Shown here: piece after piece, positions 2,173-39,748 of the stretch
Layout of the letters: every line of letters starts with the position of its first letter
How positions within the stretch are numbered: position 1 is the stretch's first letter
NCBI GenBank assembly: GCA_902579105.1
Contig: CACHFM010000001.1
Coordinates: 1 to 64,000, forward strand
DNA: 64,000 nt
Direction of reading: 5' to 3'
DNA from: an uncultured Pelagibacteraceae bacterium
GTDB taxonomy: Bacteria > Pseudomonadota > Alphaproteobacteria > Pelagibacterales > Pelagibacteraceae
Notes under the pieces: model-generated
The model's database searches: none
The model's input: the letters and a program-made list of their open reading frames with translations, nothing else
What the model was told of the DNA's origin: nothing
Program-made: the position numbers and the translations under genes

Positions 2173-3246
2173 TTATTTTAAATTAACTAAACTTTCTTCT
2201 TGCGCCTGTAACGTTAAAGCTTCAATCATTTCATCAAATGCCTCGCCCTCTAAAAATTCTTGTAATCTATGAAGAGTTAAATTTATTCTATGATCTGTTA
2301 CTCTTCCTTGTGGAAAATTATAAGTTCTAATTCTTTCTGATCGATCTCCAGTACCAATTTTGGTTTTCCTATCTTTAGATCTTTCTTGATCAATTCTGGA
2401 TCTCTCTAATTCATATAGTCTAGCTCTTAAAATTTTCATACCTTTTGCTTTATTTTTATGTTGAGATTTTTCATCCTGCTGAGAAACAGATAAACCTGTT
2501 GGAATATGAGTTATCCTTACTGCACTATCTGTTGTATTTACAGATTGTCCACCTGGACCTCCTGCTCTAAAAACATCGATTCTTAAATCTGAGTCATTTA
2601 TTTTAAGATCTACTTCTTCGGCTTCAGGTAGAACAGCAACTGTTGCGGCTGACGTATGAACCCTTCCTTGTGTCTCTGTATCTGGTACTCTTTGAACTCT
2701 ATGAACTCCACTTTCGTATTTTAATGTAGAATAAATATTTGTTCCTTTTATTGATGCTATTACTTCTTTTAAACCTCCCGCATCACTTCTAGAAATAGAT
2801 ATCAATTCAAGTAACCATTTTTTTTTATGACTAACTTTCTCATACATCTTAAAAAGGTCAGATGCAAATAAACTTGCTTCCAATCCCCCTGTTCCTGCTC
2901 TTATTTCTATAATTGCATTTTTTTTATCTGCCTCGTCCTTTGGAAGTAAAAATAATTTTAATTTCTTTTCATTAATTTCGTGCTGTGATTGTAATTCTTT
3001 CAATTCTAATTCTGCCATCTTTTTAAGCTCATCATCCACAGAGTCATCATCTAAAATTTTATCTAATTCTTTTTTATCATTTTCAAACGAAATATATTTT
3101 TTTGCATATTCTATTATCTCATTTACATCTGAATATTCTTTTGATTTTTCTGCAAATAGTTTTTTATCTATCTCACCAGAAGATAAATCTTTTTCTAAAT
3201 TAGAATGCTTTAGTATAAGTTCTTCGACTGTTTTTGTAGGTATCAT
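2173..3246 (-). CDS. prfA: Peptide chain release factor 1
   Basis: RF1 recognises UAA and UAG stop codons in the ribosomal A site and triggers peptide release. The 357-residue length is normal. The universal GGQ is at residues 232-234, and the codon-reading PxT tripeptide reads PDT at 188-190. Residues around the GGQ ([11 protein letters not shown]) are conserved. The start ATG overlaps the last base of ispG's stop codon. UGA is also a stop in this genome (pyrF ends in TGA), so an RF2 must be encoded elsewhere. Confidence 0.98.
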
Positions 3247-4346
3247 TAAAATTTATCACCTAACTCAGCTGCTTTTTTTTCTACCTGTTTTACTACTTCC
3301 TTTACAATATCTTCAGTTATTACTTTTTCTGACTGAATACCAGAAAGATACAACATATTATTACCTTTCCCTCCTCCAGTAATTCCTATATCTGTCATAG
3401 CAGCTTCGCCAGGACCATTAACAACACAACCAATTATAGATAATGTTATTGGTGTTTTTATATGAGAGAGTTTTTCTTCTAATATTTTAACTGTATCTAT
3501 CACTTGAAATGCCTGTCTTGCGCATGAAGGACAAGATATAATTTTTACTCCCCTATTTCTTAAATTTAAGGATTTTAATATTTCATTTCCTATTTTTACC
3601 TCTTTAGAGGGATCATCTGACAAAGAAATTCTTATCGTATCTCCAATTCCGTCCATCAAAAGTGATCCAAGTCCTATAGATGATTTAATGCTTCCAGAAA
3701 CAAAACTTCCTGCTTCTGTAATTCCAAGATGCAGTGGATAATCACATACTTTAGATAACTGTCTATAAGCAGCAATTGAAAGAAAGACATCCGATGACTT
3801 TACACTTATCTTAAAATTAAAAAAATCTTGATCTTCTAAAATCTTAATATTTCTCAAAGCACTTTCCACTAAAGCTTCAGGGCAAGGCTCTTTAAACTTT
3901 TCTAAAATATCTCTTTCTAATGATCCAGCATTTACTCCTATTCTAACTGAACAATCATTATTTTTTGCTGCACGAAGAACTTCATGAACTTTTGATTCAT
4001 CTCCAATATTTCCAGGGTTTATTCGTAAACATTTTGCACCATTTTCTGCAGCTTCAATTGCTCTTTTATAATGAAAATGTATATCTGCTACTATCGGTAT
4101 AGACACATGTTTTGTTATTTCTTTAAGTGCAACAGTTGAGTCTTTATCTGGACATGAAACTCTAACTATATCAGCTCCTTCCTCAGTGATATTATTTATC
4201 TGCTTAATTGTCGCTTTAACATCGGTAGTTAAAGTATTTGTCATAGATTGAACTGATATTGGATTATCTCCTCCAATTTTTACATTACCAACATTTATAA
4301 CTTTTGTTTTTCTTCTCTTAATATCTCTAAATGGTCTTATGCTCAT
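3246..4346 (-). CDS. ispG: 4-hydroxy-3-methylbut-2-enyl diphosphate synthase (flavodoxin)
   Basis: IspG (GcpE) reduces methylerythritol cyclodiphosphate to HMBPP in the non-mevalonate isoprenoid pathway using a 4Fe-4S cluster. All cluster ligands are visible: Cys272 and Cys275 in SCPSC, Cys307 in GCVVNGPGE, and the fourth ligand Glu314. The N-terminal TIM-barrel part begins with [16 protein letters not shown], typical of the family, and the 366 residues match the short bacterial form. It lies 4 bp downstream of lysC and overlaps prfA by one base. Confidence 0.97.
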
Positions 4347-35536: not shown

Positions 35537-36973
35537 CTAGGCAATTTCATATTTTTTTTCTATAGACATCACAAATTGATTAATTTTATCTAATTTTTTT
35601 AATTCTTCTTCATCATCTCGATTAGAAGCTTGATCTCTTAAAGTATCAATTTCAGTATAAGCCATACCAATTGTTTGCCATTTCTCCTTATTTTTGCTCA
35701 AAATTCTTCTAGCAATTTCGCTTTTAATATTTCTATATAAATCAGTTGGTAAAATCTGTGGTGCTTCTTGATATATGATTTTTTGACCGAACCAAGCGCA
35801 TCTTTTATCTTGAAATTTATCTAGTAATCTTAATTTGTCTTCCCATGAAGAATTATGCCATGTTTTAAATAATGCTGTATCTTTATTTGGAATAAATTTT
35901 TCATATAAAGTTTCCTCAGGTAATAAATCCACTTGTGATTTTGTTTGTGCCTTCTCCTCTGCAGCTTCTCTATTTATGATTTGAATATTTTTACAAAAAT
36001 TCTCATTATTTCTAACTAAATGAGCTCTTTTTTTTATAGTTTCCAAATCTAAATCTGAATAAGGTTTTTCTTTTAAAGCAAATTTTTTATCTAAAAGCAT
36101 TTGCCCTATGTTGGTTTTAATTATTCTTAGTGCTTTGGGGCTCGTTTTTTTTAACGTAGCTCTAAGCTGATCTATGGATAAATCCAATAAAGGTTCAGGA
36201 TCTCTTCTGCAGTCCCAGACATATCCCCAATTGGCATAAACTGGATGATAACAATGATTTGGATGTATGGTGCTAACTAGATAGGTCATATTTTTACCTT
36301 TAACATTTTCGACAATTGTATAAATTTCCTCATTATTTAACATAGTTTGAGCTTTTGCTTTTGTTGAAGTTTCTAAAAAAGAATTCCATTTATCTTCATG
36401 TTTTTTTTTTATAATTCGCAATATCTTTAAGGCTATCAAAGAATCATGAAGCGCTGTATGTTGAGCATCTGTATTGAAACCTTGTTCAGTGGCTAACGAC
36501 TCTAGAGCTAGTGAAACGTTACCAGCATCTGTCAAACCTGTTTTTAATGTATCTGAATCTAATGTTTGAGCAGCGCGAGCTATGTGTAATCCGTCCGTTT
36601 CTTGATTTGGAGAAGTATGAGAAGAGTATGGATATCGATTAGATCTAAAAAAATTTGAGTGTATAAGTTTCCTATCAAAATTCGTATTTCCCCAACCAAT
36701 GAAGCAAGCAGGTGAAATTTTTAAAAAAAAATTTTCTATAGCAGCTATAAATTCATAATGTGAGTAATTACCTTTAGTAAGTAAATCAATACTTGTCGAA
36801 TTCACAAGAAGTGCTTTTGCAGATGGGACTTCACCTTCAGGTAGTCTACCTCTAATATTAATTTTTGAAATTTCATTTAAATTTTTATCCACGACTACCG
36901 CCCCGAATTCTATAATACTTCCAAAAATATGTGAGTTAGAGGTCTCTGTATCGTAGATTACTATTTTATCCAT
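35537..36973 (-). CDS. sbcB: Exodeoxyribonuclease I
   Basis: ExoI degrades single-stranded DNA 3' to 5' and takes part in mismatch repair and recombination. The 478 residues match E. coli ExoI in length. The DEDDh catalytic motifs are visible: YDTETS (about 7-12), NTNFDRKLI (about 116) and HTALHDSLIAL (about 172-182). The central ExoI-type SH3-like and C-terminal helical regions follow (ALRIIKTNIGQMLL, DKRCAWFGQKIIYQE). It forms a minus-strand pair with the neighbouring PD-(D/E)XK nuclease. Confidence 0.93.
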   Translation of the reverse strand: MDKIVIYDTETSNSHIFGSIIEFGAVVVDKNLNEISKINIRGRLPEGEVPSAKALLVNSTSIDLLTKGNYSHYEFIAAIENFFLKISPACFIGWGNTNFDRKLIHSNFFRSNRYPYSSHTSPNQETDGLHIARAAQTLDSDTLKTGLTDAGNVSLALESLATEQGFNTDAQHTALHDSLIALKILRIIKKKHEDKWNSFLETSTKAKAQTMLNNEEIYTIVENVKGKNMTYLVSTIHPNHCYHPVYANWGYVWDCRRDPEPLLDLSIDQLRATLKKTSPKALRIIKTNIGQMLLDKKFALKEKPYSDLDLETIKKRAHLVRNNENFCKNIQIINREAAEEKAQTKSQVDLLPEETLYEKFIPNKDTALFKTWHNSSWEDKLRLLDKFQDKRCAWFGQKIIYQEAPQILPTDLYRNIKSEIARRILSKNKEKWQTIGMAYTEIDTLRDQASNRDDEEELKKLDKINQFVMSIEKKYEIA

Positions 36974-36991
36974 TATTTCCTATATAGATAC

Positions 36992-37678
36992 TTAAATTAA
37001 ATTTAAAAGCTCATTAAATTTTTTTAATCTTCCTAAAAACAAATTTTGATAAACAAACAAATCGTGTTCTTGAATTTTAAATTCTTGAAATAAATTATCT
37101 ACTGTGCAAACCAAAATTACACAAGAAGTAATATTTGAGTTATACACAATATTATGAGCCAGTGAATATGCGCTCGTTTGTAGAAACCAAGAGTCAATAT
37201 ACTCTGCTTTTTTTGGTTTATTACTTTGTTTAAAATCAATTATAGTTTCCCTTCCTTCATAAACTCCAACACAATCAGCAGTTCCTGCATATTTTTCAGG
37301 ATAATAAAGAGTGCACTCAACCCCCCAAATTTCTTCTAATCTCTTCGTTAATCCTTTATCAATAATTTCTTTAGCCATCTTTTTATATTGCTCATTATCT
37401 TCAAAAAAACTTAAATTTTCTCTTCCTAGAAGATAAGACTCTAAATAATTGTGCATTTGAGAGCCTCTACTACTTGCTGCTTTTGTAATTGCTTCGGCTT
37501 CTTTATGACCAGTTCTTTCGCGCCAATTTGCAAGAGCAGCTTTATCTTCTTCAGATTTAGTTGCATCAAGAATTGAGGTAACACTAGGTAATTTTTTCTC
37601 TCCCAATAAATATCTTCTAATTCCATCTACGGTTGCTCTTGAAGACGAAGGATAATCAAATTTTTTATTCCATTTCAT
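36992..37678 (-). CDS. PD-(D/E)XK family exonuclease, MGME1/RecB-nuclease type
   Basis: The 228-residue protein shows the RecB-like nuclease core: GTADCVG (active-site Asp, about residue 128), TIIDFKQS (D-x-K, about 144-149) and the QTSAY helix (QxxxY, about 163-167); RGSQMHNYLESYL matches the upstream helix of MGME1/Cas4-like enzymes. The substrate is probably single-stranded or flap DNA. Closest described relatives by motif are the mitochondrial MGME1 exonuclease and phage exonucleases. It lies 18 bp upstream of sbcB and is divergent from rmuC, suggesting a shared DNA-end-processing role. Confidence 0.8.
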   Translation of the reverse strand: MKWNKKFDYPSSSRATVDGIRRYLLGEKKLPSVTSILDATKSEEDKAALANWRERTGHKEAEAITKAASSRGSQMHNYLESYLLGRENLSFFEDNEQYKKMAKEIIDKGLTKRLEEIWGVECTLYYPEKYAGTADCVGVYEGRETIIDFKQSNKPKKAEYIDSWFLQTSAYSLAHNIVYNSNITSCVILVCTVDNLFQEFKIQEHDLFVYQNLFLGRLKKFNELLNLI

Positions 37679-37744
37679 TGTGAATCGAGTGTTACCTTGT
37701 ACTATTAAGTTTAATTATTATCTATATAAAAGATAAAGAAAATT

Positions 37745-38881
37745 ATGGAAAATTTAATTATTGGTTTTTTAGGTGGAGTAGTAGTTTTTGGAATCTTCTG
37801 GCAATTCTTTTTAAAAAATAAACAAGATGAAAATAAAATTGATGATACTGAAATAAAAATAGATTTAGCTAGAAAAGAAGAAGAACTGAAAGCTGCAGAA
37901 AAAGCAAAAGATAGTTTACAAGAACAACTTACAAAAAAAGAAACTGAAGTAACAAAACTTTATAAAGTTGCAGATGGAATAAATGAGTATAAAACCCAAA
38001 CTCAACAAGCTATAAATAAACATGATGAAGCAGTAGCACGTCATACTAATTGGTGGGAAAAACTAACAACTAACATCACTTATCAAGGAAAATTTAATCA
38101 AGAAATTTTAGAAAATCTTTTAACTAGTGCAAATCTTGTAAAAGATAGAGATTTTTTTCCTCAAAAAAAACAGACAACTTATGACATAGATGACAACAAA
38201 GACAAAGATGTAATTCCTGATATGCTCTTAAAATTTCCAGAGAGAAATTATATTGTTGATGCTAAGGTGTCTTTAACTCATTGGACAAAGTATATTAATG
38301 AGAAAGATGAAAATCAAAAAAAACAATATCTAAAAGATCATCTCGCTTCTGTTAGAAATCACTTATTTGGACCAAAAGGATTAGCTAAGAAAAATTATAA
38401 TAAGCTATATGGAATAAAATCTTTGCAATCAGTTATTGTTTTTTTTCCAGCATCTAACTTATATTCTGTAACACTTGATGCTGATAAAGCTCTTCAAACA
38501 GAGGCTCTTAAAGCAAATTTTATTTTATCGTCCCCTACTGAACTATTGAATATGATTAAGGTTTTTGAGCAGATAAAGAGTGAAAAGAAACAAATTGAAA
38601 ATATCAGTAAGATCATAACCTCTGCTAGTAAGATATTTGATAAATATTCAGATGTTAAAACAGCAATTAAAGGAGCACTGCAATCATATAAAACTCATGC
38701 TAATCAACTACAAAGCCTAGTTACAAAATCTTGGGGCTCACAAGGATTAGAAAAACAAATCAAAAAACTTGAGGATGAACATGGAGTAATGCCTGGTAAA
38801 CAAATTCCTGAGATACCACCAGAACAAACAACTATTACAGATGTTTCTGATCCTGAAGAAGATAAAGACAAGTTAAACTAA
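37745..38881 (+). CDS. rmuC: DNA recombination protein RmuC
   Basis: The 378-residue protein has an N-terminal membrane anchor (about 4-22), a long charged coiled coil (about 35-105) and the RmuC nuclease-like core, with VIPDMLLKFPERNYIVDAKVS (PD-(D/E)XK-type residues) and a VIVFFPASNLYS stretch. RmuC limits inversions at short inverted repeats in E. coli. It is transcribed divergently from the nuclease gene at 36992. Its last codons overlap, in antisense, the remains of a DNA methyltransferase gene. Confidence 0.92.
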   Translation: MENLIIGFLGGVVVFGIFWQFFLKNKQDENKIDDTEIKIDLARKEEELKAAEKAKDSLQEQLTKKETEVTKLYKVADGINEYKTQTQQAINKHDEAVARHTNWWEKLTTNITYQGKFNQEILENLLTSANLVKDRDFFPQKKQTTYDIDDNKDKDVIPDMLLKFPERNYIVDAKVSLTHWTKYINEKDENQKKQYLKDHLASVRNHLFGPKGLAKKNYNKLYGIKSLQSVIVFFPASNLYSVTLDADKALQTEALKANFILSSPTELLNMIKVFEQIKSEKKQIENISKIITSASKIFDKYSDVKTAIKGALQSYKTHANQLQSLVTKSWGSQGLEKQIKKLEDEHGVMPGKQIPEIPPEQTTITDVSDPEEDKDKLN

Positions 38882-38952
38882 TTTTTAAAACCTAAGTCCA
38901 TGCCTCCAGCATCAGCAAATAAGGATAAAATTTTTAGTTTTTTGTTAATCAT
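38878..38952 (-). pseudogene. N-terminal remnant of a DNA (cytosine-5) methyltransferase
   Basis: On the minus strand an ATG at 38952 opens 24 codons ending in TAG at 38878, overlapping the rmuC stop. The peptide contains ILSLFADAGGMDLGFKN, which matches the start and SAM-binding motif I of C5 DNA methyltransferases (usual form SLFxGxGGxDLGF). Everything downstream, including the catalytic Pro-Cys motif, is missing, replaced by the 3' end of rmuC on the other strand. It is best read as a deletion scar of a restriction-modification or orphan methylase gene. Confidence 0.7.
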
Positions 38953-39061
38953 TTTACGAATTTAGGTCTTTTTTATACAATAATATTACAAATGATAAAT
39001 GTCTAATAAAACTATTTATAAGTTATTATATTCAACCAATTATATATATTTAAAAAACAAC

Positions 39062-39748
39062 TTATTTAGAAAGTAATCTGATTAAATTTTTTAATCCTTT
39101 TTTTTTAAGATTTTTTTTTGAGGCAAATATACATGCTTGAGATTTTAAAATTTGGCCATCTTTAAGTACACGTAAATTATTTGCTTTAAGAGTTTCACCT
39201 GTAGATGTTATATCAGTAATTAATTCTGCAGAACCTGTAAAAGGATAGGCTTCAGTAGCTCCTAGACTACTCACTAATCTAAATTGAGTAACACCTTTTG
39301 AAAATAAAAATTCTCTTGTTAAATTTGGGTATTTAGTAGCAACTCTTAATCTCTTTTTCTTTTTATCTCTAAATTCAAATGCAATTTCTTCAAGATCAGC
39401 TACTGTCTGAACATCAATCCAAGGATCAGGTATAGCAACAACTAAATTTGCTTTACCAAATTCATATTTTTCAACTAAATTAATTTTTTTTTGAATATTA
39501 ATTTCACTCTCTTTAAGAAGGTCAAATCCTGAAAAGCCAATATCTAAAGAATTATCTCCTAATCTTTCAATAATTTCTCTTGCGTGTAAATAAAGAATTT
39601 TTATATTTGATTTATTTTTCACTGAACCAATTAAATCTCTTTCACCTCTTTCAGAAATAAGTTTTAATTTTTTTTTAATAAAGATTTTTAAAACATCTTT
39701 TCTTAGTCTACCTTTGCTTGGAATACCTATGTTAATTATATTTTTCAT
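39062..39748 (-). CDS. hisG: ATP phosphoribosyltransferase catalytic subunit (short form)
   Basis: HisG starts histidine synthesis by joining ATP and PRPP. The 228-residue length marks the short HisG_S type without the C-terminal regulatory domain; it needs HisZ, whose gene lies 2 bp upstream. Motifs include GIPSKGRL at the N-terminus, DIGFSGFDLL, LRVATKYPNLTREF and the PRPP loop DITSTGETLKANNL. A 180-bp gap separates its stop from rmuC and holds the methyltransferase remnant. Confidence 0.97.
   Translation of the reverse strand: MKNIINIGIPSKGRLRKDVLKIFIKKKLKLISERGERDLIGSVKNKSNIKILYLHAREIIERLGDNSLDIGFSGFDLLKESEINIQKKINLVEKYEFGKANLVVAIPDPWIDVQTVADLEEIAFEFRDKKKKRLRVATKYPNLTREFLFSKGVTQFRLVSSLGATEAYPFTGSAELITDITSTGETLKANNLRVLKDGQILKSQACIFASKKNLKKKGLKNLIRLLSK

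Follow-up and report, generated by a model that had tools for sequence, protein, structure and literature searches.

SAR11 bacteria are among the most abundant in the sea, and to our knowledge the holding and loss of phage defenses in their streamlined genomes are poorly documented. In one SAR11 (Pelagibacteraceae) genome, a 24-codon minus-strand open reading frame lies between hisG and rmuC and resembles the start of a C5 cytosine DNA methyltransferase, raising the question of whether it is a remnant of a defense gene and, if so, what was lost with it. A sequence-only reading of the window (the whole 64,000-nucleotide stretch analyzed here) had proposed a deleted methylase at a hot spot of defense gene gain and loss. 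We compared 80 hisG-bearing SAR11 loci, including L087 (single cell AG-422-O14), which has an intact counterpart, and consider it very probable (∼95%) that a type II restriction-modification (R-M) cassette, lost by a deletion of ∼1.9 kb, left the stub as its scar (Table 1).

Table 1. Features of the hisG-rmuC interval in the window and at the L087 locus
Sequence	Feature	Position	Strand	Basis or remark
Window	hisG, left-hand flank of the site	39062..39748	-	TIGR00070, E=2.8e-52
Window	Methylase upstream region, retained	38953..39061	-	Continuous alignment with the L087 upstream region
Window	ORF MINKKLKILSLFADAGGMDLGFKN, followed by stop	38878-38952	minus	24 codons
Window	Predicted C5 cytosine DNA methyltransferase codons 1-24, motif I damaged	38881..38952	-	Rest of gene probably deleted
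Window	Proposed deletion junction, methylase codon 24 fused to rmuC stop	38878..38881	.	L087 comparison
Window	rmuC, inverted "B" allele, right-hand flank of the presumed lost cassette	37745..38881	+	PF02646, E=3.8e-40
L087	hisG, hisG-side flank of the cassette	79-765
L087	Intact C5 methylase, 414 aa	992-2236		Between hisG and rmuC
L087	Endonuclease-like gene, 254 aa	2205-2969		Convergent to methylase
L087	rmuC, far flank of the cassette	2977-4164

Identity of the 24-codon stub

The peptide by itself leaves its identity undecided. Searches against Pfam, NCBIfam, and the PDB gave weak or no matches, the best being to the C5 methyltransferase family PF00145 (profile positions 1–19, E=0.068, under the Pfam cut-off) and to M.HaeIII (E=0.23, weak), so that the peptide search suggested by the sequence-only reading becomes decisive only through an intact ortholog. 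Such an ortholog occupies the stub's locus in L087; it matches PF00145 over its full length (E=3e-86), and its nearest solved structure is M.HaeIII (1.3e-57). The stub agrees with it at 23 of 24 amino acids and 59 of 72 nucleotides, and when the L087 methylase was used to query the entire genome to which the window belongs, the stub was the single match (E=2.4e-7). The assignment of the peptide to the N-terminus and motif I of a C5 methyltransferase is borne out by these results, and, judged by sequence, the stub is the true 5′ end of such a gene.

The window and L087 align at the DNA level from the upstream region into codon 24, with a score of 219, whereas 200 shuffles reached at most 38. 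The preserved upstream region, which had been overlooked, is ∼117 bp shorter beside hisG than in L087, just downstream of hisG, and contains a promoter-like TAGACA-17-TATTGT at 39005–38977 that is matched in L087, weak evidence on its own. At the other end, an in-frame TAG (38878–38880) closes the stub and overlaps the rmuC stop codon (38879–38881), confirming that the frame stops at the rmuC coding end. L087 positions 1064–2976 have no counterpart in the window; the missing ∼1.9 kb holds the rest of the methylase, the endonuclease, and a spacer.

What survives is damaged. Motif I was correctly recognized as homologous in the sequence-only reading, which missed an Asp in the place of a Gly: the stub has FADAGG where the intact form is FAGAGG. 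This Gly14Asp change, the sole replacement relative to L087, strikes the first Gly of FxGxG, and the position following "FA" is occupied by Gly in each of the 65 intact methylases collected. Outgroup codons at this position are GGT or GGA, and GGT to GAT is a one-base change. A substitution of this kind in the SAM-binding motif would be expected to kill the enzyme. The catalytic Pro-Cys (motif IV), ENV (motif VI), the recognition domain, and motifs IX–X are absent from the window and from its own genome, and the stub is therefore a remnant rather than a methylase: it shares with PF00145 members the start of the profile, but keeps only an altered motif I and lacks the catalytic and recognition parts. 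The motif I damage and the missing parts suggest that decay of the 24 residual codons is under way and that they yield no functional enzyme.

The pattern of divergence points to a long period in a working gene. Eleven of the 24 codons differ from L087, ten synonymously and one by replacement (P=1.7e-6 under neutral change), and nucleotide identity to L087 is 82% in the stub and 82.2% in the flanking hisG. The equal divergence fits inheritance of the stub together with its flank and, combined with the 10:1 ratio, implies that the stub evolved within a functional gene through most of the interval since the two lineages separated. The methylase gene thus appears to have been under selection until recently, and its loss would be comparatively recent.

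The gene adjoining the L087 methylase matches the PADLOC model REase_II (1.5e-4), and its family has an invariant D...D-x-K pattern. The structure of a family member modeled with AlphaFold (moderate confidence; mean pLDDT 61, higher in the core) retrieved BglI in Foldseek (E=1.7e-5, probability 1.00), with SfiI next, and BglI was also the only PDB match of the family sequence profile, weak at E=0.06. The partner family thus has the fold and the D...D-x-K pattern in common with BglI/SfiI-type PD-(D/E)XK endonucleases, whereas its sequence similarity to them is marginal; no trace of the partner gene is found in the window. L087 therefore holds a predicted type II R-M cassette, a methylase with an adjacent BglI/SfiI-like endonuclease, the activities of both being predicted from sequence and fold. 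In G138, the same methylase (92%) adjoins rmuC with a related endonuclease beside it, and the hisG side lies off the contig. Across L087, L152, L153, L194, and L195, methylases are 85–92% identical and their partner endonucleases only about 23–46%, suggesting that the endonuclease evolves far faster than the methylase or is swapped.

Origin of the scar and competing explanations

The ancestor would have carried, between hisG and rmuC, a C5 methyltransferase gene pointing at rmuC and, read in the opposite direction from the rmuC side, a BglI/SfiI-like PD-(D/E)XK endonuclease gene, as in L087 now. A deletion of ∼1.9 kb would then have taken methylase codons 25–414 and the entire endonuclease gene, ending at the rmuC stop codon. 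Loss of a methylase alone is expected to be lethal while its endonuclease is active, as is established (see also PMC4176335); because the two genes are adjacent and convergent, one deletion would remove both and avoid the lethal state of an endonuclease without its methylase. The deleted gene proposed earlier would thus have been a methylase indeed, but not a methylase alone: the endonuclease, overlooked in that reading, would have gone with it as part of a whole type II cassette. We infer a single deletion by illegitimate recombination, and the cassette presumably restricted phage DNA.

The homology, the synteny, the missing DNA, and the motif damage were all observed directly, and no other copy was found. 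Profile searches of the window's own genome, a 39-contig draft, with PF00145 and with the endonuclease family returned no other C5 methylase and no endonuclease relative; at 92.7% completeness, this excludes a copy elsewhere only in part. Among the available strains, no sister combines an intact cassette with the window's own rmuC allele, and the exact ancestral junction is for this reason unseen. The rmuC genes of the window and L087 are only about 67% identical, and the event may therefore have included a recombinational exchange of the rmuC allele.

Taken further, this exchange leads to the strongest alternative, in which a foreign segment bearing the window-type allele, rmuC-B, recombined into a cassette-bearing strain and replaced the rest of the cassette, with no simple internal deletion. 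We regard it as unlikely, though deserving of weight, and it is a variant of mechanism within the main reading rather than a competing identity for the stub. The rmuC allele does vary independently of hisG: rmuC-B occurs in 17 of 399 genus genomes, most other relatives have the differently oriented rmuC-A at the site, and the rmuC-B closest to that of the window (G227, 94%) sits by a less similar hisG (81% aa). However, R-M cassettes already adjoin rmuC-B in L087, G138, and AAA795-J21, which makes replacement unneeded, and a junction exactly at the rmuC stop is expected if rmuC was already the neighbor and only an rmuC-sparing deletion survived.

That the deletion arose in whole-genome amplification or assembly, with the living cell retaining an intact system, is very improbable. 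The draft state of the genome lends this some plausibility, as does the fact that many SAR11 relatives are single-cell amplified genomes, in which chimeras occur, but the missing genes are found nowhere else in the assembly, and the motif I Gly-to-Asp change, seen in none of the intact methylases, fits real decay. Still less credible is the view that the frame encodes a functional micropeptide or leader and is conserved as such. The frame is open and the promoter-like sequence upstream is conserved, but the frame is absent from the relatives' empty sites, and in 397 family genomes the matching DNA lies at the 5′ ends of intact methylases (G578, G707), the only other match being one of 50 bases without a methylase (G736). 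We reject the micropeptide on these two grounds. Chance resemblance to motif I, already thought unlikely in the sequence-only reading and favored by the sub-threshold Pfam score of the peptide alone, is ruled out by the syntenic alignment and the whole-genome match.

The hisG-rmuC interval across SAR11

An intact methylase in the rmuC-hisG interval of related genomes, the proposed check on a relic, is present not only in L087; G010, G066, G374, G436, and AAA795-J21 have other C5 methylases in the same interval. Beside window-type rmuC, C5 methylases occur in G010, G066, G374, G436, G138, L087, and L130 (two methylases), and none adjoins it in G227, G415, G033, G133, G209, G249, G171, G224, G344, G403, G434, or L071. 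Among 61 genus genomes with an L087-like methylase, eight (G101, G111, G169, G175, G304, G374, G436, and G438) have one at a distance of about 5 kb or less from hisG, against 0.61 expected under uniform placement (rough Poisson P=2.8e-7).

Unrelated C5 R-M systems and other defense genes share the site in further SAR11 genomes. Bsp6I-family endonucleases stand beside the methylases of G374 and G169 downstream of hisG, where G066 has a type II endonuclease, L059 and L131 have HerA with NurA, L093 has NurA, and L079 has a DruA-like protein with a HATPase protein; empty alleles are present in other SAR11 genomes. With differing defense systems at one conserved locus alongside empty alleles, the hot spot proposed from the window alone holds up, and on the systems predicted there, the interval beside hisG is one of repeated defense gain and loss in SAR11. 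At the occupied sites read in their entirety, the listed ORFs include no integrase, and the likeliest route of exchange would therefore be homologous recombination in hisG and the nuclease genes. Whether the hisG-side interval is a dedicated SAR11 defense-exchange site is in our view evenly balanced; if it is, whole cassettes (C5 R-M, HerA-NurA, DruA-like, and rmuC alleles) would be exchanged there with no integrase in evidence, probably through homologous recombination between conserved flanks, and small deletions, readable afterwards as scars, would remove them.

A likely second scar is found in L071. The 35 bp separating hisG from rmuC in L071 match L087 sequence preceding the methylase gene (score 37; the best shuffle reached 26) and read on as ATATCAGATTACATTTTTT, against ATATCAGATAACATTTTTT in L087 at the beginning of the endonuclease gene; L071:6681-6716 thus looks like a short endonuclease-start remnant joined to methylase upstream DNA. 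It probably records a separate deletion in a cassette of this kind, although the sequence is short and A+T-rich and its global alignment to L087 is ambiguous owing to low complexity.

Several neighboring features also vary. A conserved 43-aa membrane-like ORF (e.g. MELYLILKIIFGIGVLIATYAIIRNLDIIKIILIYFKDKLLGK), convergent to hisG and overlapping its end, lies just downstream of hisG at L087:754-882(-), in L052 and L053, and at about 50 other loci, with a median dN/dS of 0.16 over 331 pairs; it is lost from the window. Further left, the window encodes a PD-(D/E)XK/Cas4-like nuclease and an exonuclease I relative, and over 35537–38881, the alleles of rmuC, the Cas4-like nuclease, and exonuclease I found in relatives have diverged strongly. 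The PADLOC models matched by rmuC and exonuclease I are those of genes associated with reverse transcriptases (DRT).

The R-M family also occurs elsewhere. In L194 and L195 (genus g7), it is flanked by a tsaD-like gene on one side and a 111-aa gene (MQLELFDYRRDYL...) on the other, and L154 has a relative of the 111-aa gene close to its methylase; the tsaD-like site is possibly a second hot spot with a hitchhiking small gene. Phage records contained distant methylases only, all <60% identical. One IMG/VR contig, L193 (IMGVR_UViG_3300026549_002457), encodes a methylase of 62% identity with a fused HTH-like N-terminus; beside it lie an endonuclease relative and a gene for an AlkA-like glycosylase. 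It was the only such IMG/VR contig. A viral vehicle for the R-M cassette in SAR11 is possible.

Oliveira et al. 2014 (PMC4176335) reported that R-M systems are often lost totally and suggested small integration hot spots; the hisG site resembles this turnover, here with full, scarred, and empty alleles at one locus. The SAR11 hypervariable regions HVR1–4 (PMC2217521) are likewise hot spots of gene gain and loss, but are larger islands of surface, transport, or unknown functions, and hisG and methylases are unnamed there. Our literature search found no paper joining SAR11, hisG, and methyltransferase, and the locus is undescribed in the literature searched.

The hisG-rmuC scar adds a clean case to a process already known and does not represent a system of a new kind. 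Even a scar of 24 codons can be identified with confidence once the corresponding intact locus is available. With R-M alleles in full, scarred, and empty form at one SAR11 locus and other defense systems there in other strains, defense gain and loss at the hisG site become directly datable and testable in single-cell genomes.
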